Below, one piece after another: positions 33,471-47,565 of a stretch of 64,000 nucleotides of DNA. The DNA is from Haloarcula vallismortis ATCC 29715 (GTDB lineage: Archaea; Halobacteriota; Halobacteria; Halobacteriales; Haloarculaceae). The notes beneath the pieces were generated by a model that saw only the letters and a list, made by a program, of their open reading frames with translations, did no database searches and was not told the DNA's origin. How positions within the stretch are numbered: the first letter of the stretch is position 1; each line of letters begins with the position of its first letter. The stretch is taken from the NCBI RefSeq assembly GCF_000337775.1, contig NZ_AOLQ01000042.1, positions 186,001 to 250,000 of the forward strand, read 5' to 3'. The translations under genes and the position numbers were made by a program.

Positions 33471-36146
33471 TCAGGCCAGTTCCGCGACCGTCGCTTCGAC
33501 CTGCTCGACCCGCGAGCGGTTTGTCGTAGCGTCCTTTTCCACACGGACGAGGTCGTCGGCCGCGCCGACCAGTTCCTCGTCGTGGCTGACAACGAGAATC
33601 TGCTCGACGCCGACCTCGTCGCGCATATACTCCACGAGATCCAGCAGTTGGGTGACGTGACCTGAGTCGAGGAACACCGTCGGTTCGTCGAGGATGAGCG
33701 GCGGCATCGGTGCGGCACCCTCGATGCCCTCCGCGAGCAGGCGATAGATGGCACACCGCAGACTGAGGTTGAACAGCGCGCGCTCGCCGCCGGAGAGCTG
33801 TTCGGGCTCCAGCGGTTCGCCGTCCTTCTGGTACACCGTCAGCTGGTACTGGCCATCTAATTCGATGTGGGAGTACGAGTCGTTCTGGTACACCAGGTCG
33901 AACGTCTGATTGAGCATCCGTTCGAGCGTCTCGACGTTGCGCTGTCGTAGCTCCGCCCGAAGCGTCCCGTACATCTCCTGTAGCTCTTCGGTCTCGTCGT
34001 ACAGCGTTTCGAGCTTTTCGAGGGTCGCTTCGAGATCTTCACGCCGGTCCCGCAGCGATTCCAGCTCCTCGATTTCGTTCGTGACGCCGCCGATGGCGTT
34101 TTGCAGTTCATCGCGCTGTTCGCGTTTCTCCGCCAGCGCCTCCTCGGCCTGCTCGATGTACTTTTTCGCGCGCTGCTTCTCGTTGCGGGCCTCTTCGATT
34201 CGTTTCTCGTCGAACGACTCCGCGAGGTCCTGCTTGCGTTCGCGCTTCTCTGCGAGCTGGTCGCGGCGCTGGTCGTTCAGTTCGGCCTGTTGCGTACGCT
34301 TCTCGCGCAGGCGTTCGATGTCGTCGTCGCAGTCGTCGATATCACCCAGTAGGTCCTCGACTCGCTCCAGCTGCTTGATCGATTGTTTGACCTGCTGGCG
34401 CTCCTGATTACACTCGGCGACGACCGACCGACAGTTCTCGGCCTGCTCACGGGCTTCGGCTGCTTTCTCGCGTTTCGTCTCTGCTTCGGACTCGTGTTCT
34501 GCTGCTTCCTCGCAGAGCGTCTCGATGCGCTCCTGGTCCGCGTCCAGTCCGTCTTCCTTCTCCTCGACCAGTTGAACGATGTTCGAGCGGTTGTTCTCGA
34601 GCGTCGATAGCTCGTCCGCTGTCTCGACCAGCTCCGCCGCCGTCTCGTGTTTCGATTCAAAGTCTGAAACGTTCTCACGGGCGTCCGCGAGCGTCCCCTC
34701 GAGCTCCGAAATCCGCTCGCGGTCGGCCTCGATGGAGTCGACGTGCGGTGACTCGGCCACGTCCTGCCCGCATTCGGGGCACTTGCCGGCTTCCAGCAGC
34801 GCCTCGGCCTCCGCGAGCGAGTCGCGCTCGTTCTCCAGTTTCGTCTCCAGTTCGGTCGCCCGCTGTCGGGCCTCTTCGAGGTCGCTGGCGACGGACTCTT
34901 TGTACGACCGTGCCCCCTCGCGGTCGGTCGGTGCGTTCTCGAACTCGGCTTCGAGCGCGGCGATCTGTTCGTCGATGTCGCTAATCTGCTCCCGGCGCTG
35001 GGCGATGGTCTCCCGCGCGGATTCGAGGTCAGATTCGAGTTCGTCGGCTTCCTCGCGCTTCTCTTCGGCTCGAGATTCGAGGTCCGCGGCGCTCTCGGCC
35101 AGCGCGTCGGCCGTGCTGCTGTGCTCCTTCGCGTCGACGCGCTGGTCCTCGATTCGGCTCTGCAGTTCGTCGTCGCGAGACTGGAGGTCCGCGAGTCGCA
35201 TCTCGACGGTTTCGGGGGTTGGCTCCGAACTTTCGAGATCCGTTTCCGCGAGCGTTTCTGAAAGGTCCTCCCGCAGCGACTCCTGCCGATCCTGTAGATC
35301 ACTGATCTGCTCTTTGAGCTTGGTTCGCTCCGTCTCCGTCTCTGTGATGGTCGCCTCCAGCTCTTCGATATCGTCTTCCAGCGCCGACAGCTCCTCGCGT
35401 TTCTCCTCGTACTCCTCGAGGACGGACTCAGCACGGGTGAGCGTCTCCTCGGCGGTGCCCTTCTGTTCCTCGATGTGCTCGATCTCGTCTTGCAGTTCAG
35501 ATTCCTTCGTTTCGAGGCTATTTAGCCGCTCGTGGAGGTCTTTCTGTTCTTTCTCCTGAATCTGCTCGTCGAGCTGTGAGAGCGCACCTTGTTTGTCATC
35601 ACGGACGCGTCCGACGCCGACGCGGGCGTCGCTGGCTCGCTCACGATACTCCTCCAGTTTCCCCAGTTGCAGGAGGTCATCAAGCATGTCCTGCCGGGCG
35701 CTGGGGGAAGCGTTGATGAGCTTGTTCACCTCGCCCTGACGGACGTAAGCACAGTTGACGAACGCCTCGCTGTCCATCCGCAGGAGCTCCGTAATTCGTC
35801 GGCGCACATCGCGCGCCCCTTCGTAGTTCCCGTCGGGTGTCTCCAAGACGCACTTCGCGGTCGTCGGCTGGGAGCCCGTCGCTCGAACCCGACGCGTGAG
35901 GTGGTAGTCGCCGCCGGCGTGGGAAAACCACAGTTCGACAGTGCAGTCGTCGGCCCCGATGGTGACCACGTCACCGAGATTCTCATCCAGCGCTTTCGAG
36001 CCGTACAGCGCGAAGAAACAGGCCTCAAGCAGGGAAGACTTCCCACTCCCGTTGAGTCCGTGGATGATTGTCACGCCGTTGTCCAGCCGCAGGTCGGCAT
36101 CATCGTAGCACTTGAAATTGGATAGCTTGACGCGTTGGAATCTCAT
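33471..36146 (-). CDS. rad50: DNA double-strand break repair ATPase Rad50
   Basis: 891 residues (an extension to 36206 lacks support; MRFQRVKLSNF is the typical start). Walker A GLNGSGKSS at 30-38, long coiled coil, zinc hook CPEC near residue 451-454, then the second coiled coil, signature LSGGERALFNLSLRCA near 785 and Walker B PLILDEPTVFLD near 817. Tethers DNA ends with Mre11. The gene starts 13 bases after mre11 ends, so the two form an operon. Confidence 0.97.
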   Translation of the reverse strand: MRFQRVKLSNFKCYDDADLRLDNGVTIIHGLNGSGKSSLLEACFFALYGSKALDENLGDVVTIGADDCTVELWFSHAGGDYHLTRRVRATGSQPTTAKCVLETPDGNYEGARDVRRRITELLRMDSEAFVNCAYVRQGEVNKLINASPSARQDMLDDLLQLGKLEEYRERASDARVGVGRVRDDKQGALSQLDEQIQEKEQKDLHERLNSLETKESELQDEIEHIEEQKGTAEETLTRAESVLEEYEEKREELSALEDDIEELEATITETETERTKLKEQISDLQDRQESLREDLSETLAETDLESSEPTPETVEMRLADLQSRDDELQSRIEDQRVDAKEHSSTADALAESAADLESRAEEKREEADELESDLESARETIAQRREQISDIDEQIAALEAEFENAPTDREGARSYKESVASDLEEARQRATELETKLENERDSLAEAEALLEAGKCPECGQDVAESPHVDSIEADRERISELEGTLADARENVSDFESKHETAAELVETADELSTLENNRSNIVQLVEEKEDGLDADQERIETLCEEAAEHESEAETKREKAAEAREQAENCRSVVAECNQERQQVKQSIKQLERVEDLLGDIDDCDDDIERLREKRTQQAELNDQRRDQLAEKRERKQDLAESFDEKRIEEARNEKQRAKKYIEQAEEALAEKREQRDELQNAIGGVTNEIEELESLRDRREDLEATLEKLETLYDETEELQEMYGTLRAELRQRNVETLERMLNQTFDLVYQNDSYSHIELDGQYQLTVYQKDGEPLEPEQLSGGERALFNLSLRCAIYRLLAEGIEGAAPMPPLILDEPTVFLDSGHVTQLLDLVEYMRDEVGVEQILVVSHDEELVGAADDLVRVEKDATTNRSRVEQVEATVAELA

Positions 36147-36159
36147 TGTGTGGCCTCCA

Positions 36160-37413
36160 TTAGAGGAACTCCTCGACGCTCGCCTGGCTCTCGCTGTCGG
36201 TACCATCTGCTTCGTTCACTGGTGCTCCGTCGGTGTCATCCCCGCTTGCGCTCGCGGTGGCGTCGGTGTCAGATGCGCTATCGCTCGCAGCCGCTTCTGC
36301 GTCGGCTGCAAGGGCAGCAGAGTCATCCGAAAGCAGTTCACGCACGTGCCGTTCGACCTCGTCTTTGACGTTCGCGTCGGCGACTTTCGAGGCGCGAATC
36401 GTCTCGTCGATGTCGTGGGCAGCCTCGCTCAGTCCGAGGTCGCGGACGCGCTCGGTGACGGCGTCGTCGGGGTCGGCGAAGCTGATCTCCGTTTCTCGCT
36501 CCTCGGCCGTGATTTCCCGGTGGTCGGTGACCCGGGCCACGAGCGCGCCCTGGTCCAGCGCGAACGATTCAACGCTGGCCGGCGTAACTGGGTCGCCGTC
36601 GCCGCTGATAGAGACGATGACAACGGCCTCCTCCAGATCGTGCTGGCCGACGCGACTCCGAACCCGTTCGACGCCCTCCTCGGGCCCGAGGTCCACGTCG
36701 ACGAAGACGAACTCGCGAGTGTCGAGACCGCGACGGGTGATACGGACCTCGTCGTCGAAGGTGACGATGTTGTAGCCGCGGTCCTCGCGCTCGCTCGCGC
36801 TCGCGCGCTCGGTCGACCCGCAGTAGGTGACCCAGGCGTCCTCGACCTGCTGTTTGCCGGGGTCGTGGTTGTCGCCGAGCAACAGCGCGTCGAAGGTCAC
36901 CGACGACTCAGTGAGTATCTCCGCAGCGTCCCAGTCGCCGTAATCGAAGGGCTGGAACAGGCCGTGGGTGACAAGCGCGGCGCTGTCCGCGTCGTGGGGA
37001 GCAAAGTCGTAGTCGAGGTCGTCGCGCTGGGAGCGCGGGACGAAATCGAGGCCGTAGAAGGCGGTGTCGCCGATGACTGTCGGCTCGTCGCCGAGGCGCG
37101 TCGCCAGGCCAAGCGATTCGTACAGGTCGAGCCACTGTGCGTCCCGCTTTGCCTCGTGGTTGCCCACGACGGCAAGAAACGGAATATCAGCTTCGGAGAG
37201 TTCTTCCAGAACGCTCAACGTGCCCATGATGTCCGCAAGCGCCGGGCGGCGGTCGTGAAAGAGGTCACCCGCGTGGACGACGGCGTCAGCGTCGTCCGCG
37301 ATGGCGTCTCGGACCACCTGCCGGAACGCACCGAGGAAGTCGTCCCGTCGGTCGGGGACGTTGTACTGCTGATACCCGACGTGGGTATCGCCGGTGTGTA
37401 TCACCCGTGTCAT
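36160..37413 (-). CDS. mre11: DNA repair nuclease Mre11
   Basis: 417 residues. Calcineurin-like phosphoesterase motifs: D9-x-H11 (GDTHVG), GDLFHD (Asp50), GNHEAK (Asn85-His86), LVTHGLF and LLGDNHDP near 180 (the family usually has GHxH here). The core is ~330 residues followed by a long acidic Ala/Ser/Asp tail ending VEEFL, possibly a partner-binding tail. Nuclease partner of Rad50. Confidence 0.96.
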   Translation of the reverse strand: MTRVIHTGDTHVGYQQYNVPDRRDDFLGAFRQVVRDAIADDADAVVHAGDLFHDRRPALADIMGTLSVLEELSEADIPFLAVVGNHEAKRDAQWLDLYESLGLATRLGDEPTVIGDTAFYGLDFVPRSQRDDLDYDFAPHDADSAALVTHGLFQPFDYGDWDAAEILTESSVTFDALLLGDNHDPGKQQVEDAWVTYCGSTERASASEREDRGYNIVTFDDEVRITRRGLDTREFVFVDVDLGPEEGVERVRSRVGQHDLEEAVVIVSISGDGDPVTPASVESFALDQGALVARVTDHREITAEERETEISFADPDDAVTERVRDLGLSEAAHDIDETIRASKVADANVKDEVERHVRELLSDDSAALAADAEAAASDSASDTDATASASGDDTDGAPVNEADGTDSESQASVEEFL

Positions 37414-38266: not shown

Positions 38267-38767
38267 ATGACAGATATCGAGACGCTGGCCGAGCGGCTCC
38301 GTACGGTCGAACGCGCGGTCACGGACGGAACGACAGAGTTCCCGGATGTGACGGAACTCGCTGAGCTGGAGAACCGCGTGGACACCGTCGAGCAGCGTGT
38401 CGACGACATTGACGAGCGGACGACAGAGCTCGAAGCCGCTACACAGGCTCTCCGCGGGTACGTGGGGAACGTCCGTACGGTCAACGAAGATATCGAGCAA
38501 CGCGCCGACGCGGCGCTGGCGGCAACTGACCGGCTGGAAGATCGGCTCGACGCAACACTGTCGTCGCCATCGGTATCTGGCCCACAGGCGGCGGGGAGTG
38601 ATCAGCATCGAACTGGGCGAGCACAGGCCGCTCCACGTTCGCCGGACACCGTCCACGCAGACTCCAGCTCCGCGACCGATTTCTCAGCCATCACTGAGGG
38701 CAGCGACCACGACAACGACGAGACACCAGACCTAGGCGTTGTCGGGCGTATCCGCGCGTTGCTGTGA
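38267..38767 (+). CDS. Coiled-coil protein of the pilus-like operon (DUF7310-like)
   Basis: 166 residues. Residues 1-90 form a strong coiled coil with repeated DVTELAELENRVDTVEQRVDDIDERTTELEAATQ-type heptads (only part listed), followed by a low-complexity Ser/Asp/Gln linker. First gene of the operon; overlaps the next by 4 bases (GTGA). I associate the family with DUF7310, from memory. Probably a soluble or peripheral component of the machine. Confidence 0.75.
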   Translation: MTDIETLAERLRTVERAVTDGTTEFPDVTELAELENRVDTVEQRVDDIDERTTELEAATQALRGYVGNVRTVNEDIEQRADAALAATDRLEDRLDATLSSPSVSGPQAAGSDQHRTGRAQAAPRSPDTVHADSSSATDFSAITEGSDHDNDETPDLGVVGRIRALL

Positions 38768-39237
38768 TATACCGGCTGGTCCTCGCTGTCGCGGTCATGA
38801 CCGCACTCGTCGGTGCAACAGCGCCAGCGCTGTCGACAGCCCGAGCAGACGCGGCCAACGGCACGATGGAGCGTCAGGTGGACGCGCTGCGGACCGAGCT
38901 GACGAGGTTGGTCGAGGCCGATGCGGCGACGGCGAACGGCGACGCACAGCGAGTAGTGACGATACGAATCCCCGGACAGACCTACACGAGCGCTGGCGTC
39001 GGCCGGCTACAGTTCGCGGCGCGGGCCGGTGTTGGCGTCGCAACTTGGACAGTCGAGTCCCGGAAACAGACCGAGCGGCTGGTCGGCATCCCGATCCGAA
39101 CGACGGCGTCGACCGACCGGCTCGACGAACCCGGCACACATCGACTCGCGTTCGTACTGACGCGGTCGGACGGCCAGCGGATGCTGCGAGTCCATCGGTT
39201 TAAGTCCGAAGCCGGAGCGAGGGAGAGCCATGCGTGA
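38764..39237 (+). CDS. Exported protein of the pilus-like operon (DUF7311-like)
   Basis: 157 residues from GTG 38764. Residues 1-26 form a signal-peptide-like segment (YRLVLAVAVMTALVGATAPALSTARA), then a soluble domain with beta-type patterns (QRVVTIRIPGQTYTSAGVGRLQF, GTHRLAFVLTRSDG). Probably extracellular or membrane-attached. Overlaps the ATPase gene by 8 bases. Confidence 0.75.
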   Translation: MIYRLVLAVAVMTALVGATAPALSTARADAANGTMERQVDALRTELTRLVEADAATANGDAQRVVTIRIPGQTYTSAGVGRLQFAARAGVGVATWTVESRKQTERLVGIPIRTTASTDRLDEPGTHRLAFVLTRSDGQRMLRVHRFKSEAGARESHA

Positions 39238-41095
39238 GTGGCTCTTCGGGTCATCGACATCGTCTGGCTGTTGCTGTGACACGGCCATCGAGGGTGGGCG
39301 GCTGGTGGTGCTGGCGGATGAGTGTCCCGGCGGCGGCGACCTCGCCGCGTCGGCTGACTGCCGGGCGACAGTCGTCGATTCGCTCTCATCGACCGGTGTC
39401 GATACCGTCGTCACGGAGCAAGCGGGACAGGAGCGGGTGTACGCCGAGCGAGCGGCGGCAGTGCTCACTGCAGCTGGCCGGTTCGCCACCAGAGTCACAT
39501 CGCTGGACGACCGCCTCGCAGACCGTGCCCGCCGTGACCCTGTTGCTGCCGCGGAGGAGGCAATCGGCCGATCAGGACCTATCGCTGATCTTGCGGCGGA
39601 AACCGGGTTGGCTGTCGCCACCGAAGGCTTTGACACCAGCGAACAGGCGCTTCCTGCCTACACCGGACCAACGATTAGCGACGCCCGTGTCGGAGCAGCG
39701 CCGCCGGCGGATGCGGCTCTCCGGGACCAGCAAGCGCTCTCGACAGAAGCCGTCGTTCGGCGATACGACACGCGCGGCGACCACCTCCCGATGTACCATA
39801 TCGAGCCCCGCGAACAACGGTTCGACGCGGACACGATGGAGACGCTTGCCGAAGCGTACAGGCGAGTCGCGACCGCCGCCGCCGCCGACGGCGGCTGTCA
39901 CCCGTACGACGCAGCCACCACGGTGGCCGGTGACAGTACGACGGCAACCGCTGTCGGTGCCGTACTGGAGAAACATACGGGCGGGCTCGGAATCTTGGAG
40001 GATATCTTTGCCGATCAACGGGTGTCCGACGTGTTCGCCACAGCCCCGGTGAGTGACACCCGGCTCCGACTGCGTTGTGACGGTGAAACCATGCGAACGA
40101 ACGTCCGCCTGACGCCGGCGGGCGCGAACACGCTGGCATCGACGTTCAGGCGGGCGAGTGGTCGGGCATTCTCGCGAGCGAGCCCAACGCTCGATGCAAC
40201 GGCGACGGTGGCTGACCGGCAGATTCGCGTTGCAGGTGTGAGTGAACCGGTCAGTGACGGCCTTGCCTTCGCCTTTCGCGCCCATGATAGCGACGTCTGG
40301 CGGCTGGCCGACTTCGTCGACAACGGGACGATGCCGGCCGCCGTCGCCGGACTGCTCTCCATCGCCGCGGAGCGCGGCGGGGCCTGCCTCGTCGCCGGCC
40401 CTCGCGGCGCTGGCAAGACGACGACACTCGGGGCGTTGCTCTGGGAACTCCCGCACGAGGTCCGGACGATACTCATCGAGGACACGCCCGAACTTCCGGC
40501 GTCCTCGTTGCGGTCCGACGGACGAGACGTGCAGGCGCTTCGGACCGCCAGCGGGGACGGGCCATCAGTCGATGCGACAGCGGCGCTGCGGACTGCACTC
40601 CGGCTCGGCGAGGGCGCACTCGTCGTTGGAGAGGTCCGCGGCGAGGAGGCCGGTGTGCTCTACGAGGCGATGCGTGTCGGTGGCGGCGATGGGGCCGTTC
40701 TCGGGACGATTCACGGCAACGGTCCCGAAGCAGTTCGGGAACGGCTGGTGTCGGACCTCGGCGTCCCGGTGCAGTCATTCGCCGCGACGGACCTCGTGGT
40801 AACGCTGGCTCCGCCCGCGTCGGCGCACGGCCGTGGTATCGCATCTGTCGCGGAAATCGTCTCTCACGGCGAGGAAATCTCTTTCGAGATGCTCTACAAG
40901 CGCGACGGGTCGACAGCGACGGCTACCGGTCGCCTGAAGCGGGGCAGTAGCCGTCTGGTGGAGTCCCTCGCCGCGCCGGGCGAGTCCTACACAGAGCTAC
41001 TTGACGCTATCGAGGCGCGAACCGAGCGATTTGAGGAGTCAGTGGCTGTCGAGGCGCGTGGGAACGAACCGGACACAGACGAGGGCCAGCCGTGA
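39230..41095 (+). CDS. TadA/PilB-type secretion ATPase
   Basis: 621 residues. A Cys-rich N-terminal region (SGCCCD...DECPGGGD...SADC) may bind zinc. The C-terminal half is a type II/IV secretion ATPase: Walker A GPRGAGKTTT near 391-400, Asp box IEDTPELP, Walker B region LVVGEVRGEEA near 462 and His box (TIHGNG). Powers assembly or retraction of a type IV pilus-like fibre at the cytoplasmic face. N-terminal ~200 residues are divergent, as in other haloarchaeal members of this class. Confidence 0.93.
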   Translation: MREWLFGSSTSSGCCCDTAIEGGRLVVLADECPGGGDLAASADCRATVVDSLSSTGVDTVVTEQAGQERVYAERAAAVLTAAGRFATRVTSLDDRLADRARRDPVAAAEEAIGRSGPIADLAAETGLAVATEGFDTSEQALPAYTGPTISDARVGAAPPADAALRDQQALSTEAVVRRYDTRGDHLPMYHIEPREQRFDADTMETLAEAYRRVATAAAADGGCHPYDAATTVAGDSTTATAVGAVLEKHTGGLGILEDIFADQRVSDVFATAPVSDTRLRLRCDGETMRTNVRLTPAGANTLASTFRRASGRAFSRASPTLDATATVADRQIRVAGVSEPVSDGLAFAFRAHDSDVWRLADFVDNGTMPAAVAGLLSIAAERGGACLVAGPRGAGKTTTLGALLWELPHEVRTILIEDTPELPASSLRSDGRDVQALRTASGDGPSVDATAALRTALRLGEGALVVGEVRGEEAGVLYEAMRVGGGDGAVLGTIHGNGPEAVRERLVSDLGVPVQSFAATDLVVTLAPPASAHGRGIASVAEIVSHGEEISFEMLYKRDGSTATATGRLKRGSSRLVESLAAPGESYTELLDAIEARTERFEESVAVEARGNEPDTDEGQP

Positions 41096-42837
41096 GCCAC
41101 GTCCGCAGTTCAGACGACTGCTGTGACGACGCGAACACGGAATCAGCTGCCCCGCTCACAGCCGCGCTCGTTGGGTCCTGCCCAATCACTGTCGAGGTAC
41201 CGGCCGACTACCAGCGAGCGTGTCGGCTGCTCTCGGTTTCGGCTCCACCTGCGACACTGCTGACAGCGAGCTACGCCGTTGCGGTGTGTGGCTCCCTGCT
41301 TGCACTGCTCGTTGCTGTGCTAGTGACCGGCCCGATGGTGACGACTGTCAGCCTCGGATTCCTTGCCCTGTCTTTGGGTGTCGCGGCGCTGGGGCGGTAC
41401 GGCGTCCCCTTCGCGGCGGAAGCAAAGCGTATCCGAACGCTGGGGGCCGCGCCCTCGCTTGTCACGACGCTGGTGCTCGGCGCGACGCTATGGCCAAGCG
41501 CTGAGCGGGCGGCGGCGTTCGCCGGACGGACCGGAAACGGCCTCCTCGCGACACGGCTGGAACACCATCGGCAGCGAGCCGCAGGCACGCCGCGAAGCGG
41601 TCTGGCGACGTTCGCGACAGCCTGGCGTGACCGGTTCCCGGCGCTCGAACGCGCAGTCGGGCTGGTCGAAAACGCGACAGCGGCCCCAGTCGAGGAGCGG
41701 TCCGAGATCCTCGAACGCGCACGGCGATGCATCCTCGACGGGACGCGCGACGAGATGGCAGCCTTCGCGGCCTCGATTCGCGGTCCGGCGACCGCGCTGT
41801 ACGCGTTCGGTGTCCTCCTGCCGCTGGCGATGGCGTCGCTGTTGCCCGCCGCCGCTGCCGCGGGTGTGCCAGTGACTGCCCCTGCGCTGGTCGGGACATA
41901 CGGCATCGTCATGCCCGGCGCACTGGTCGTCGCCTGTTGCTGGCTCCTGGGCCGGCGACCGGTCGCGTTCCCGCCGGCGACAATCCCGCGAAGCCACCCG
42001 GACGTGCCGGCGTCGCCACTCCCGTCAGCTGTGGTCGGCATCGCCGCCGGAATCGGTGGGTGGCTCCTTGCCGGCGCGCTCGTAGCTTCGTGGGCGTCCC
42101 CCATCGGCGCACTCGGGGCCGGCGTCGGGAGTGCGCTCGTCAGCTACTACCGACCTATCGCCGGAGTCCGCGACCACGTCACCGACATCGAGTCGGGCCT
42201 CCCCGACGTGCTGTCGGCCGTCGGTCGACGGCTGGACCGCGGTCAGTCGGTCGAAGCGGCGCTTATCGAGGCTGTCGACGAGACTCCCGAACCGACAAGC
42301 ACCGTCATCGAAGCCGCTGCCGCGCGTCAGGAACGCCTTGGGACCAGCATCAAGGGAGCGTTTCTGGGCCCCGGCGGGGCGCTCGCTGCCGTTCCGAGCC
42401 ACCGTACTCGACGGGCTGCGATACTGCTGGACACGGCCGCGACAATCGGACCGCCAGCGGGGGAGTCCGTGACGACGATGGGTGAGCATCTGGAATCGCT
42501 CCGGGCCATCGAGCGCGAGACGCGTCGTGACCTCTCGCAGATAACCGAGACGCTGTCGAACACCGCTGCGCTGTTCGGTCCGCTTATCGGCGGTGCGACT
42601 GTCGCGTTGGCCGGCTCGATGGGCGGCGGCGAGCAGTTCGCCACCGTTCCGAGTGCACTGCTGGGACCGGTCATCGGCTGGTACGTTCTCGTTCTGGCTG
42701 TGTTGCTGACGACGGTATCGACAGGCCTGCATCGGGGCCTCGACCGCGCACTTGTCGGCTACCGAACCGGCCTGACACTCCTGTCGGCTTCGGCCACCTT
42801 CCTCGTCGCCGTCGTCGCTACCGGGCTGCTGGTCTAA
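41092..42837 (+). CDS. TadC-type integral membrane platform protein
   Basis: 581 residues, GTG start overlapping the ATPase stop (GTGA). Two copies of the type II secretion F/TadC domain: cytoplasmic helical regions (about 130-210 and 350-470, with ESGLPDVLSAVGRRLDRGQSVEAAL) alternating with about seven to nine hydrophobic segments. The F-domain protein is the inner-membrane partner of the ATPase. Its N-terminus repeats a Cys-Cys pair (DDCCDD). Length is normal for haloarchaeal double-domain members. Confidence 0.9.
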   Translation: MSHVRSSDDCCDDANTESAAPLTAALVGSCPITVEVPADYQRACRLLSVSAPPATLLTASYAVAVCGSLLALLVAVLVTGPMVTTVSLGFLALSLGVAALGRYGVPFAAEAKRIRTLGAAPSLVTTLVLGATLWPSAERAAAFAGRTGNGLLATRLEHHRQRAAGTPRSGLATFATAWRDRFPALERAVGLVENATAAPVEERSEILERARRCILDGTRDEMAAFAASIRGPATALYAFGVLLPLAMASLLPAAAAAGVPVTAPALVGTYGIVMPGALVVACCWLLGRRPVAFPPATIPRSHPDVPASPLPSAVVGIAAGIGGWLLAGALVASWASPIGALGAGVGSALVSYYRPIAGVRDHVTDIESGLPDVLSAVGRRLDRGQSVEAALIEAVDETPEPTSTVIEAAAARQERLGTSIKGAFLGPGGALAAVPSHRTRRAAILLDTAATIGPPAGESVTTMGEHLESLRAIERETRRDLSQITETLSNTAALFGPLIGGATVALAGSMGGGEQFATVPSALLGPVIGWYVLVLAVLLTTVSTGLHRGLDRALVGYRTGLTLLSASATFLVAVVATGLLV

Positions 42838-42840
42838 GTG

Positions 42841-42848
42841 TTTAAATT
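42841..42848 (+). promoter_or_regulatory. Internal promoter before the surface-subunit genes
   Basis: TTTAAATT lies centred 27 bases before the ATG at 42872, in the only real gap (34 bases) of the operon. It would let the downstream subunits be transcribed separately from the ATPase and platform. Confidence 0.6.
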
Positions 42849-42871
42849 GGAGAACGCGGCCAGGCCGATCC

Positions 42872-43333
42872 ATGTTCGAAACCCACGTCGATACGCTGTA
42901 TCTCTGGATCGGGCTGGGAACAGTGAGCGTGGCCGTCCTTGGCGTCGCCATCGGCCTCCCGACGACCGCACCGCCGGACGCGACAGCGGCGGCCGCGACT
43001 ATCGACGAGGTCACGACCAGCCCGCCCGGGTCCGTCGCACATCGACGACTCGTCGCCGAAGAGTGGGCATTCGATGGCCGCGAAATCCGTCTCCGCAACG
43101 GCGGCGGGACGGCCGCCGCACGACTGATTCGAACGGCTGTCCCGGCGCGGACCGACCGACTACAGACTGTCGTGGACGGTGAGCGGCCGAAGGCCGTGTA
43201 CGAATCGCCGGGCGCGTTCCGTCTAGATACCCGTCAGGCCCGGACCGCTAACGACAGGTGGCGACCGGCTCCGGACCGGATGACTGTCAGGCACGTCGCT
43301 TGGGGAGGGACCGATGTCACCATCGTCGGATAG
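42872..43333 (+). CDS. Single-span surface protein of the pilus-like operon (DUF7283-like)
   Basis: 153 residues. One N-terminal hydrophobic segment (LYLWIGLGTVSVAVLGVAIGL) and then a soluble domain rich in beta-type segments, which is the layout of a minor pilin or membrane-anchored subunit. No canonical class III prepilin cleavage site is obvious. The leaderless start is supported by the promoter at 42841-42848. Function inferred only from position. Confidence 0.72.
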   Translation: MFETHVDTLYLWIGLGTVSVAVLGVAIGLPTTAPPDATAAAATIDEVTTSPPGSVAHRRLVAEEWAFDGREIRLRNGGGTAAARLIRTAVPARTDRLQTVVDGERPKAVYESPGAFRLDTRQARTANDRWRPAPDRMTVRHVAWGGTDVTIVG

Positions 43334-43709
43334 GGCGACGACGGAACCGCTCGCCGCCCTCGTCGCTGTCTTCGCCATCACGCTTGGCGTGTCGCTGTAT
43401 GCCGGCGTAGTAGACGAAGCGTTCGGCACACTTGACGATGCTCGCAACATCGCCACGCCGACCGCCGATACCGTGGAACAGCGGCTTTCGTCGGCCGGCG
43501 TTGTTCGGCCCGAGCGAGTCGACAACGCGCTCGATGCGGTTCCGGCAAACTACCACGGGAACGTGACCATCACCGCGACGACCGGCGAACGATGGGGCGG
43601 TGGCCGGGAACCACCGAGCAATGCCGACACCGAAACCAGAACGGTGAGCGTGCGAGTCGGGCCGGGGGCAGTCCGTCGCGGGACGCTCACTGTGCGAGTG
43701 TGGCGATGA
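43314..43709 (+). CDS. Minor-pilin-like protein (DUF7285-like)
   Basis: 131 residues. Charged start (SSDRATTEPLAALVAVF) leads directly into a hydrophobic helix, very like the TadE/pseudopilin N-terminus with Glu at the +5-like position (TTEPLAAL). The rest is a soluble domain. Overlaps the previous gene by 20 bases and the next by 4 (ATGA). Confidence 0.75.
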   Translation: MSPSSDRATTEPLAALVAVFAITLGVSLYAGVVDEAFGTLDDARNIATPTADTVEQRLSSAGVVRPERVDNALDAVPANYHGNVTITATTGERWGGGREPPSNADTETRTVSVRVGPGAVRRGTLTVRVWR

Positions 43710-44575
43710 CCCGAGCGATGAGTGCCGTCGCCGATGTGACGGTGTTTCTCCTACTCGTCGGTGTGGCTGCAGGGACGCTTGCAAGTGGCGTCGGAGTCGA
43801 GAAGCCGGCGACGACAAACCCTGCGGCCGAGCAAGCGTCGACGCTAGCGACGGAAACCGCAAGCGTCGAGTACGATCTGGTCGTCCCAGCGTCAGATCGC
43901 CGCAAGCCACCGGGCCATACTACGCGGCGACAACGAACGAGTCACGGGACCGTCGCGGAACTACTCGGTGAGGCAGCGATGAGTGGCGTCGCTGTGGACG
44001 GGAAGCGGGTGTCGCGCGCCGGCACTGACTTCGAGTCACAAACCGCTGCGGCGACGCGTGACAGACTCCACAGCCCTGGGCATCGAACGTCTGTCCGCGT
44101 TACCTGGGAACCTTATCCCAGTGCGCCGGTCAGCGGCGAGTACCGCATCGGCGACCGGCCGCCGGATACTGTTGACGTTCGAGCGGCAACAGTGACCGTC
44201 CCAAGTGGGATGGCAAACGTCTCCGAGCCAGCCCGTGAAGCAGCGAAGACAAGCGGGTACGACGGTGTGGCAACGGTCGTGGCTCGGAGTGTCGTCGACG
44301 GGCTGTTCCCGCCGACACGGTCGCAGTACGCGCTCCGTGGCGACTACCCATCGGATGTACTGATGGCCGTGCGATACGAGCAAATGGCCGATCTGACAGG
44401 GACGAGCGTTGTCATTGAACGACAGTCGACAGTCGAGATGAACCGTGACCTGACCGCAGCGCTTGCCGCCCGGCTTCGGTCTGATCTTCGGTCCCGGTAC
44501 GATTCGCCGGCGGACGCCGCCCGCGCCGTTCGGGTGAGCCGCGTCCGCGTAACTGTCAGGACGTGGTCACCGTGA
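43706..44575 (+). CDS. Pseudopilin-like protein (DUF7284-like)
   Basis: 289 residues from ATG 43706. N-terminal MTRAMSAVADVTVFLLLVGV is followed by a soluble domain with segments such as VRVTWEPYPSAPVSGEYRIGD. A frame extending to 43592 is disfavoured because ATGA coupling fixes the start. It resembles pseudopilins (R-x-M-S-x-V then a helix) without a clear cleavage site. Likely extracellular subunit. Confidence 0.75.
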   Translation: MTRAMSAVADVTVFLLLVGVAAGTLASGVGVEKPATTNPAAEQASTLATETASVEYDLVVPASDRRKPPGHTTRRQRTSHGTVAELLGEAAMSGVAVDGKRVSRAGTDFESQTAAATRDRLHSPGHRTSVRVTWEPYPSAPVSGEYRIGDRPPDTVDVRAATVTVPSGMANVSEPAREAAKTSGYDGVATVVARSVVDGLFPPTRSQYALRGDYPSDVLMAVRYEQMADLTGTSVVIERQSTVEMNRDLTAALAARLRSDLRSRYDSPADAARAVRVSRVRVTVRTWSP

Positions 44576-47565
44576 AAGACGACACCCGCGGCCGGGTCCC
44601 GTTCGCGTTGCTCGGCGTTCTCCTGCTGGTGAGCAGCCTCACGCTGGCCCCGACGTTCGTTACCGAGCCAGCCCCGAGTGAGACGGCCGTCGAACGGGCG
44701 CTGGATCAGGCCACGGCGGAAACCCAGGTGGCTGTTCGGGACGGCGTCTCGACGGCCGGTCCGCAGGCAGCGGCAAACCCGGTCGTCACGCCGGCCGACA
44801 CACCCACCGGCCGGGTCCTGAACAACTCGACGGCGTTCCGGGATTCGCTCAGAATCCGCGCCTATCTCCGGGTCGCGGACCGACTGGAGCGCGTCTCCGG
44901 CCGAAGCGGTGACGTGACCGTGACCGCAAAGCTACCAGCGGTCACGAACGCGAGCGATCTCCGAGCAGCGAAACACCGCGTTTCGGTCGAACGCGCCGGA
45001 CCGAACAAGACCGCGATGCGGGCGACGGTCGAGAATATCGTTCTGACGGTCCGACGAAACGGCGAGGTCGTCTCGACGCGGCGTGTTTCGCCGACCGTCG
45101 TCGTCCCGACGCAGGCGCTCATGCTCCACGAGCAGGTGTCGACATACCAGACGCGGCTGAACAACGGTCTGGACAAGCCAGGGCTGAGCCAGCGAATGAC
45201 AGCCCGGCTGTACCCGATGGCGTGGGCGAGAGGCTACGCACAATACGGCGGCGCAGGCATCGAAAATGTCGTTGCGAACCGACACGTCTCGCTGGCGACA
45301 AACGGTGCATTGCTCGGCGTCCAGCGGTCGACCTTCGGGCGGAGCGACCCAGCTGGCCGCCGTGCCCTGACAGAGGCGACAGCGATGACGGGAATCGAGG
45401 ACGTGATTCGGGGTAGCCAGGGGACGGCGCTCTCGACTGAAGTACTCAAACAGGCCGAGTACAGGCCGGTCAGCGAAACGCCGCCGCGCCCGAAGTCCAC
45501 GGCCAGTCCGAGCCCCGCGGATTCGATGACCGTCGGCGTCAACGAGACGGCCGACACCGCGTTCCGATCCGTCACCGAGCCGTCAGCGCTCAACGAGACG
45601 CTCGAAGACGCATACACCGTCGAGGTAGCGCTGGAAGTCGACAAGCGCCGACTGGGTGGAGGGCCGCCGGAGACGCCGCCGTCGCCGGGCACCGAGTGGA
45701 CACTGGTCGCCGACCGGACGACCACCGATACAGAGTCCGTTGGGACCGCCAGCGGCAGTGTTGCGACACCGGACGGCTGGCACACCCTCGAAACGTTCGG
45801 CCGGACTGTCGAGCGCCAGTACACGCGGACCGCCGTCTGGCAGAACGGGTCAGTACGTCAGCGCACGACGACCTCAAGCACCGCGCGCTATCGCGTGGCC
45901 GTCGCTGTCGTCGGCCGCCATCACGGCCGTTCACCGGCACCGAACCGCTCGATTCGGACCGCACACGACGCCAGCGCAAGTCCGCTGACCGGGTCGAATC
46001 TCGCCGACGTGGAACCGAAAGCGATGGACACGCTCGTCGGCCACACCGGGGGTCGGGACGAAGTGGCGGAGCGAGTCGTCGACGGTAGCCTGAGTCGGAC
46101 GGCGGCGACGGTGACGGCCGACCGACCGCCAGAACTGCACGACTGGGTGTATCAAGACCTGATGGACCTGCGGGCGTCAGTCCGCAACACGACCGTCACC
46201 GTCGAACGCGGACGCGTCGGGACCTTCGAGACGAATCCCCCGCAGGAACTCCGGGCACGGGTCGCACAACGCCGTGACACTCTAGCAGCCGTGCCGGGCA
46301 CCTACGACAGCGCGGCCCAGAAGGCACGGGTCGCGGCCCGGCTGACCTATCTGAATGCGGTGTCGGCGGAGTTGGACAGGCAGGCCACAGCGCGGGACAG
46401 TAACCGGAAGCGAGTCGACGCACAGCTATCGGAACGCACCGACGGGTCGCTGCGTGCCCTCCGGAAAGGATTAACCGCGCGTGAGACGCCCGTTCCACGG
46501 TCACGCCCGATGCCAGTCGGTCCGGCCGGCCCCGTCAGAACACGGGTCGATACGCAGACGCCATATCTGACGCTGGCCGAACTGGACGAGAGCCGGTATC
46601 GCGCGCTGGAGGGGAGCGAGCATCCGCTAGTGGCGCGGAACGCGAACGTGTTCACAGTCCCCTACGGCGACGCTGCCGATGCCGTCGTTGGCGGTGCGTT
46701 CGAGAGCGGTGACAGGGTACGCCTCGCAACGGCAGCGAGCGCACTCGCGGCCGCGAACGAAACCCTCGAAGACGAGTCGAACGCTACGCTCGCTTCGGAA
46801 CGCGACGCACTCCAGCAGGAGGTTGCGGCGGCTAACAGGGAACTGACGACCACGCTCTGGCTGGCAGTCTCCCAGCACACTGCGGCTGACCAGGACGAGA
46901 GCAAGGCCATTGTCACTGAAGCGCTGTCGCCATGGGACACATCGGCGGCCCGGGCACTGGCACTGACCAACGGCTCAGCGCAGGAACGGGTCGCCCGCGT
47001 CGCTGGTGCCCGACTGAACCTCACGCGGGTCGAACGCGACCGACTCCGACTGCGGCTGCTTTCGGTCGACACGCCAGCGACCAGACCGACGCTGGGGTCG
47101 ACGAACGGGACGGCCTCGGCGGTGCGGTCCGTCGCGAAAGACGAACTGAGCAGCGCCCTGGCGAACGCCGGCGAACAAAAGGCCCAGCAGCTCGCCAAAA
47201 AACGGCTCGGGACAGACAGGCTCCCGGCGGGCCTCCCGCTGGCACCGCCAGTCACCACCTGGTACGCGACGGCGAACATCTGGTGGGTGACTGTCGAGGG
47301 CGAGTACGCCAGATTTGCCGTCTCTGCGAGCCACGGCTCGCCGAGCGAGCCAGGCGCACGGACCACCTATGCGCGTGACGGACACAACGTCACGCTCGAT
47401 GTTGACGACGACGGAGCGGCCGAGCGATTGGGTACTGCTGACCGTGTCTCGTTCCGAGCCGATACAGGTGTTGTCGTCGTCGTGCCACCCAAACCTCGCG
47501 GAGTCGGTGACAAGGACGGAACGGCTGTGGAGGAATCGAGCGGCTGGCCCGACGCGGGCAGCTGA
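44572..47565 (+). CDS. Large surface protein of the pilus-like operon (DUF7286-like)
   Basis: 997 residues; GTG 44572 overlaps the preceding stop (GTGA), so earlier GTG 44563 is rejected. One N-terminal membrane segment (VPFALLGVLLLVSSLTL) and about 960 residues outside. There are no cysteines and at least 13 N-x-S/T sequons (for example NST, NET, NGS, NAT, NVT), consistent with an N-glycosylated extracellular protein. Two coiled-coil/helical stretches (about 600-660 and 705-790). Probably the adhesin or tip/anchor subunit of the fibre; the function is unproved. Confidence 0.75.
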   Translation: MKDDTRGRVPFALLGVLLLVSSLTLAPTFVTEPAPSETAVERALDQATAETQVAVRDGVSTAGPQAAANPVVTPADTPTGRVLNNSTAFRDSLRIRAYLRVADRLERVSGRSGDVTVTAKLPAVTNASDLRAAKHRVSVERAGPNKTAMRATVENIVLTVRRNGEVVSTRRVSPTVVVPTQALMLHEQVSTYQTRLNNGLDKPGLSQRMTARLYPMAWARGYAQYGGAGIENVVANRHVSLATNGALLGVQRSTFGRSDPAGRRALTEATAMTGIEDVIRGSQGTALSTEVLKQAEYRPVSETPPRPKSTASPSPADSMTVGVNETADTAFRSVTEPSALNETLEDAYTVEVALEVDKRRLGGGPPETPPSPGTEWTLVADRTTTDTESVGTASGSVATPDGWHTLETFGRTVERQYTRTAVWQNGSVRQRTTTSSTARYRVAVAVVGRHHGRSPAPNRSIRTAHDASASPLTGSNLADVEPKAMDTLVGHTGGRDEVAERVVDGSLSRTAATVTADRPPELHDWVYQDLMDLRASVRNTTVTVERGRVGTFETNPPQELRARVAQRRDTLAAVPGTYDSAAQKARVAARLTYLNAVSAELDRQATARDSNRKRVDAQLSERTDGSLRALRKGLTARETPVPRSRPMPVGPAGPVRTRVDTQTPYLTLAELDESRYRALEGSEHPLVARNANVFTVPYGDAADAVVGGAFESGDRVRLATAASALAAANETLEDESNATLASERDALQQEVAAANRELTTTLWLAVSQHTAADQDESKAIVTEALSPWDTSAARALALTNGSAQERVARVAGARLNLTRVERDRLRLRLLSVDTPATRPTLGSTNGTASAVRSVAKDELSSALANAGEQKAQQLAKKRLGTDRLPAGLPLAPPVTTWYATANIWWVTVEGEYARFAVSASHGSPSEPGARTTYARDGHNVTLDVDDDGAAERLGTADRVSFRADTGVVVVVPPKPRGVGDKDGTAVEESSGWPDAGS

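Follow-up and report, generated by a model that had tools for sequence, protein, structure and literature searches.

The window analysed in this work, a stretch of 64,000 nucleotides from the genome of Haloarcula vallismortis ATCC 29715 (labelled G000 in coordinates), contains at positions 38267-47565 an operon of eight genes that is well supported as a subclade 4F archaeal type IV pilus system, judged by its match to the published description in Makarova et al. (2016; PMC4858521). The system is therefore not of an undescribed kind, having been catalogued already in 2016, while the pilin-like character of its subunits, the linkage of the giant protein DUF7286 to the TadC-like platform and a probable major pilin with a DUF7382 domain are new here. 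It is fairly probable, in our judgment, that the operon encodes the machine that assembles the 4F filament together with its minor subunits, the shaft being made of DUF7382 pilin supplied in trans and the priming tip bearing DUF7286. This reading builds on the class of the machine, the leader motifs, the co-conservation and synteny of the genes and the phyletic linkage of the trans-encoded pilin, all of which were established by sequence comparison. Roughly 70% of the sampled haloarchaeal genomes have the system, and it occurs in methanogens too.

All eight open reading frames (ORFs) are located on the plus strand and were confirmed, in the order DUF7310, DUF7311, secretion ATPase, TadC-like platform, DUF7283, DUF7285, DUF7284 and DUF7286, with successive intergenic distances of -4, -8, -4, +34, -20, -4 and -4 bases. 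The layout of overlapping genes or gaps of at most 34 bases, claimed in an earlier reading of this DNA (the original prediction), was thus reproduced (range -20 to +34). The start of DUF7284 was refined to ATG 43706, and that of DUF7286 was set at GTG 44572, with an alternative GTG at 44563. Seven of the eight products matched Pfam models above cut-off (DUF7310, DUF7311, T2SSE, DUF7283, DUF7285, DUF7284 and DUF7286). The same gene set recurred in most of 40 regions centred on DUF7286 and ATPase matches and in most of 80 related loci, commonly followed downstream by DUF5791, SDR and DHH protein genes, and such conservation of gene order across dozens of genomes excludes a chance grouping. A PibD-type prepilin peptidase and nine Pilin_N pilins were found elsewhere in the genome; neither a prepilin peptidase nor a PilA-type gene was present in the operon, as had been predicted.

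The ATPase (39230..41095, +, 621 amino acids (aa); PF00437, E 1e-19) is of the TadA/VirB11 type, with Walker A, Walker B and His box all intact in the alignment; its best NCBIfam match was a TadA-family model, well under the model cut-off, and its nearest PDB sequence match was 2oap. Together with the TadC-like platform encoded in the same operon it represents a type IV pilus-like machine, a reading that Pfam, the motifs and the tree support. In a tree of 51 ATPases it grouped with its haloarchaeal orthologs at 100/100, and the sister group consisted of methanogen ATPases (Methanocella-like and Methanosarcinaceae-like) whose N-terminus is likewise rich in Cys; the joint clade had a support of 100/99 and a long stem. 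Four N-terminal Cys were kept in most orthologs, and an alignable N-terminal motif, ending C..GG..L....CR, was common to the haloarchaeal and methanogen proteins. The remaining ATPases of the H. vallismortis genome fell outside the clade. A second, highly divergent haloarchaeal secretion ATPase of about 800 aa was noticed at G000:C4:177059-177595 (loci L004 and L041; relatives in L163 and L172); it has the longest stem in the tree (3.58 changes per column), is kept in Haloquadratum alongside the 4F ATPase, and has a weak Pilin_N match about 2.4 kb away, at C4:179966.

According to Makarova et al. (2016; PMC4858521), subclade 4F is characterized by an ATPase with a variable Cys-rich N-terminus, prominent in methanomicrobia, a coiled-coil protein (arCOG07564) unique to haloarchaea, a dedicated and mostly stand-alone major pilin (arCOG02981), and frequent S-layer-like proteins in its loci. 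The operon shares with this description the Cys-rich ATPase N-terminus, the cytosolic coiled coil of haloarchaea, TadC, the methanogen relatives and a dedicated, mostly stand-alone pilin, the Cys-rich ATPase branch and the coiled coil being the grounds for regarding it as catalogued; the text of the paper, however, has no names for the five pilin-like DUF families of the operon. It is likely that DUF7310 corresponds to arCOG07564 and the DUF7382 pilin to arCOG02981. Our literature search found no experiment on subclade 4F, and no paper other than Makarova et al. (2016) mentioning any DUF name of the operon, arCOG07564 or arCOG02981. The machine had been called uncharacterised, which holds for the subunits, on which the search found no study, but not for the kind, described in 2016; the search likewise brought up no characterised pilus or archaellum set that the subunits would match. 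Similarly, the Cys-rich N-terminus is real and conserved, although it does not set the locus apart from known ones, since it is a trait of 4F.

The platform (41092..42837, +, 581 aa, eight hydrophobic segments) was assigned to the TadC/PilC-like class by its hydrophobicity and by T2SSF matches in 15/19 orthologs (best E 2e-5), the window protein alone having no significant Pfam match. TadC orthologs also adjoined every methanogen Cys-rich ATPase examined (E 1e-92 to 1e-109). An internal repeat in the platform was not detectable, with a score equal to that of the reversed control; only one F domain being detectable, the predicted double-F architecture is unproven at this level, although the TadC-like class stands. 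A PDB sequence search with the TadC profile gave nothing significant. DUF7310 (38267..38767, +, 166 aa; PF23991, E 3e-31), a predicted cytosolic coiled-coil protein with the conserved core LeAatQAvRGYvG.VraVNedVErRAdaALA in its ortholog consensus, was over cut-off in 109 of the 145 Halobacteria genomes used for all phyletic tallies below. An ORF of a Methanocella-like locus (L198, 6085-6582) considered as its counterpart was unsupported in profile comparison (2.7%).

The single-span proteins encoded after the platform are pilin-like by their putative class III leaders, found in DUF7285, DUF7286 and usually DUF7284. The leader rule used, which calls for a charged residue, His, Asn or Ser plus Gly/Ala and, after these, a hydrophobic stretch free of charges, is passed by 5.5% of background ORFs. 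It was met by 64/64 orthologs of DUF7285 (43314..43709, +, 131 aa; PF23956, E 3e-35; window leader ...DRA/TTEPLAALVAV, the slash marking the would-be cleavage site), by 54/56 orthologs of DUF7286 (44572..47565, +, 997 aa; PF23957, 1082 bits; window leader TRG/RVPFALLGVLLLVSS) and by 35/53 orthologs of DUF7284 (43706..44575, +, 289 aa; PF23955, E 2e-88; window leader MTRA/MSAVADV). The DUF7284 proteins of some relatives, including Haloferax, begin nearly at the would-be cleavage site, so that the loss of a leader is visible within one family. DUF7283 (42872..43333, +, 153 aa, single N-terminal span; PF23954, E 7e-45) met the rule loosely in 62/70 orthologs at varying positions, making its leader doubtful, and DUF7311 (38764..39237, +, 157 aa; PF23993, E 4e-29), with a single N-terminal membrane helix from residue ~5, did so in 0/67. 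Leaders on DUF7285, DUF7286 and most DUF7284, together with the PibD-type peptidase of the genome, are features of type IV filaments.

The methanogens provided counterparts for the less typical members. Methanocella-like genomes contain a second locus with the order X1-X2-DUF7285-DUF7284-DUF7286, the same as in haloarchaea. By profile comparison with hhalign X1 corresponded to DUF7311 (94.9%, E 5e-8), and DUF7283 is the probable counterpart of X2 (51%, E 1.5e-4), the off-diagonal pairs being below 13%. X1 and X2 have an acidic or Gly/Ala-rich stretch ahead of the membrane helix which appears class III-like by eye and in some cases was accepted by the automatic rule. In one Methanocella-like genome (L258:14094-15094), at a distance of about 2 kb from the 4F ATPase-TadC pair, a DUF7311-like pilin gene comes immediately after the gene for a Peptidase_A24 prepilin peptidase.

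The machine and the subunits proved to be strongly co-conserved. TadC orthologs were found in 105/145 genomes and DUF7286 in 110/145, including all 105 TadC-positive ones (Fisher p 1e-28, a value that ignores kinship). Nine genomes had an ATPase-TadC locus short of some or all subunit genes, and all nine (9/9) carried DUF7286 elsewhere, with the other subunits lying around the distant DUF7286 in the split loci examined; in Halovenus and related genomes, where the subunits at first seemed to be missing, the locus likewise proved to be split. The expectation of co-conservation was thus confirmed, and the opposite case, an ATPase occurring without the subunits in most genomes, failed when tested via its platform partner. 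In two genomes of different families (G066, locus L060, and G124, locus L073) the operon was deleted internally, with only DUF7310 and the tail of DUF7286 left at its ends, suggesting that the machine was lost as a unit, and, with absences spread over several families, several independent losses are likely. Such co-occurrence speaks for functional linkage and not for a position in the filament. Among the five genomes with DUF7286 only, the gene was fragmented or its frame broken in four and complete in one (G045). The latter, a single-contig genome, holds full-length DUF7286, DUF7284, DUF7285 and DUF7382 pilin genes (loci L068 and L217) without a TadC ortholog. Extra DUF7283/7285/7284/7286 clusters, sometimes with DUF7311, occur without ATPase-TadC nearby in genomes of groups f3 and f7 (L054, L057, L061, L062 and L072), possibly as alternative tip sets.

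The major pilin missing from the operon is probably a class III pilin with a DUF7382 domain encoded in trans. The gene that directly follows the 4F TadC in Methanocella-like genomes specifies a class III-type pilin about 160 residues long, and a search with this pilin detected one or two homologs in H. vallismortis and in every other genome tried. The haloarchaeal protein (candidate at G000:C7:87882-88316) has the leader region D.RAIEGLPIRLVIALVVGV, followed by the DUF7382 domain with weak matches to immunoglobulin (Ig)-like models. Strong matches were present in 110/145 genomes, including 105/105 TadC-positive ones; the five genomes with the pilin but without TadC are G012 and G055, where the pilin is truncated or broken and DUF7286 is a remnant, G124, which has a remnant of the machine, and also G045 and G108. 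In about 12 haloarchaea its gene is no more than about 4.5 kb away from DUF7310 or TadC, as a rule in divergent orientation; in most haloarchaea it stands alone. The phyletic and positional links give independent support to the stand-alone major pilin of Makarova et al. (2016).

The same evidence bears on two other readings. The five operon pilin-like proteins might alone form a short pseudopilus, as in type II secretion systems, serving secretion or envelope work without a long filament: the five single-span proteins all accompany the motor, one giant subunit dominates the set, and an ordinary major pilin was not found in the operon. We consider this unlikely in view of the DUF7382 pilin, which is present in all TadC-positive genomes, follows TadC in Methanocella-like ones and lies near the machine genes in about 12 haloarchaea. 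Alternatively, the motor could assemble general PilA-type pilins, as PilB3-PilC3 of Haloferax volcanii does, with the DUF proteins being accessory adhesins or S-layer-associated proteins instead of tip pilins. PilA-type Pilin_N pilins are available in trans, one pilin set can be used by more than one PilB paralog (PMC6491452) and S-layer-like proteins were reported in 4F loci (PMC4858521), but this appears quite unlikely given that DUF7285, DUF7284 and DUF7286 bear class III leaders and given the 105/105 tally, which covers the DUF7382 pilin and not PilA. The large and sequon-rich DUF7286 itself had no S-layer match in Pfam or PDB profile searches. The H. volcanii PilA1-6/PilB3-PilC3 system resembles the one proposed here in having class III pilins in trans to the motor and one PibD for processing; it differs in that the other haloarchaeal PilB-type ATPases belong to other clades of the tree, and no coiled-coil or giant minor-pilin partner is described for it in the literature examined.

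For the arrangement of a filament with a DUF7382 shaft the closest precedent is the bacterial Tad pilus (type IVc, T4cP), whose tip complex of TadE/TadF/TadG-type minor pilins, with a giant member for a backbone, initiates the pilus and influences what it does (PMC12075869). The operon likewise encodes a TadA-class ATPase, a TadC-class platform and three consecutive class III minor pilin candidates of small, medium and giant size, and this gene order was the reason to propose a DUF7382 shaft with a DUF7285/DUF7284/DUF7286 tip. It is nevertheless not Tad proper: the candidate shaft pilin has a DUF7382 Ig-like domain, whereas Flp of Tad is small and without a globular domain; TadV, TadZ, secretin and RcpC are missing from the operon; and there is a single platform gene instead of separate TadB and TadC. 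In the proposed mechanism DUF7285, DUF7284 and DUF7286 would first lose their leaders to PibD, the gene for which is outside the operon; the ATPase hexamer, with DUF7310 as a putative cytosolic regulator or scaffold, would drive the platform, which would lift the pilins from the membrane; the three trimmed proteins would form the priming tip complex, in analogy to the TadE/TadF/TadG-type minor pilins of Tad; DUF7311 and DUF7283, leaderless or nearly so, would be pilin-like partners or anchors; and the shaft would be built of the DUF7382 Ig-fold pilin, with DUF7286 exposed as a possible adhesive or contact-making end. A more specific version, which we put forward tentatively and hold to be somewhat doubtful, is an archaeal counterpart of the Tad tip in which a set of five minor pilins, two or three of them having lost the class III leader in haloarchaea, caps the DUF7382 shaft with an N-glycosylated new-fold protein of ~1000 residues.

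DUF7286 carries 15 N-glycosylation sequons where its composition would predict 5.5, and the count exceeded expectation in 55/57 orthologs; the 997 residues of the original prediction were confirmed, and the glycosylation claimed there is probable as a prediction from the sequons. AlphaFold2 (AF2) models were good for DUF7286 (predicted local distance difference test (pLDDT) 83.5, predicted template modelling score (pTM) 0.73) and confident for DUF7284 (pLDDT 92.4), the two subunits for which the suggested structure prediction and fold comparison were run, and showed an N-terminal helix, a second long helix and then a large mixed domain. Foldseek and VIA-align searches with the DUF7284 and DUF7286 models found nothing that stood out from noise (best Z 6.7 and 5.8), and a PDB sequence search with the DUF7286 profile gave nothing significant. 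In methanogens a small exported protein, in some members with a C-terminal hydrophobic segment, adjoins DUF7286 (L198:12379-12984, L199:12530-13060, L204:6161-6757 and L205:6135-6743); no counterpart follows DUF7286 in the window.

Several points weigh against the filament with a DUF7286-bearing tip. Without a known-fold match for the AF2 models, a pilin fold or TadG likeness of the globular parts of DUF7284 and DUF7286 is unsupported, albeit the missing match indicates neither new folds nor unlikeness to pilins. With no leader on DUF7311 and a doubtful one on DUF7283, both may not be polymerised pilins. The residue at +1 of the DUF7286 leader site is Arg, which is unusual for class III. Finally, G045, which has the pilin and a full-length DUF7286 but lacks TadC, and G108, with the pilin alone, make the linkage not absolute. 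Naming a probable pilin and a tip set makes the system testable in Haloferax, which carries the locus (DUF7286 was matched in the H. volcanii genome), and the system may show how archaea use sequon-rich and leaderless pilin-like subunits.

The archaellum (ArlI/ArlJ) is comparable in its related ATPase and platform, a coiled-coil accessory protein and single-span anchor proteins. It differs in that the Pfam scan of the operon gave no archaellin, ArlH, ArlF or ArlG match, bearing out the predicted lack of archaellum genes there, and in that the window ATPase stands apart from all other ATPases of the genome, presumably with ArlI among them. Type IV filaments of archaea and bacteria also serve DNA uptake or exchange, and a DNA- or cell-contact machine of this sort, like Ups or Com pili, might be considered instead of an adhesion pilus; in its favour, mre11-rad50 happens to be close to the operon in the window. 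We regard it as most improbable, with no Com- or Ced-like DNA-channel gene recognised by Pfam in the operon and with the neighbourhood not conserved. The rad50 and mre11 genes are located upstream of the operon on the opposite strand (33471-37413, -), and a conserved association with them was rejected: mre11 was seen in the window and in 1/80 other loci (L151), the usual flank being DUF5791-SDR-DHH.

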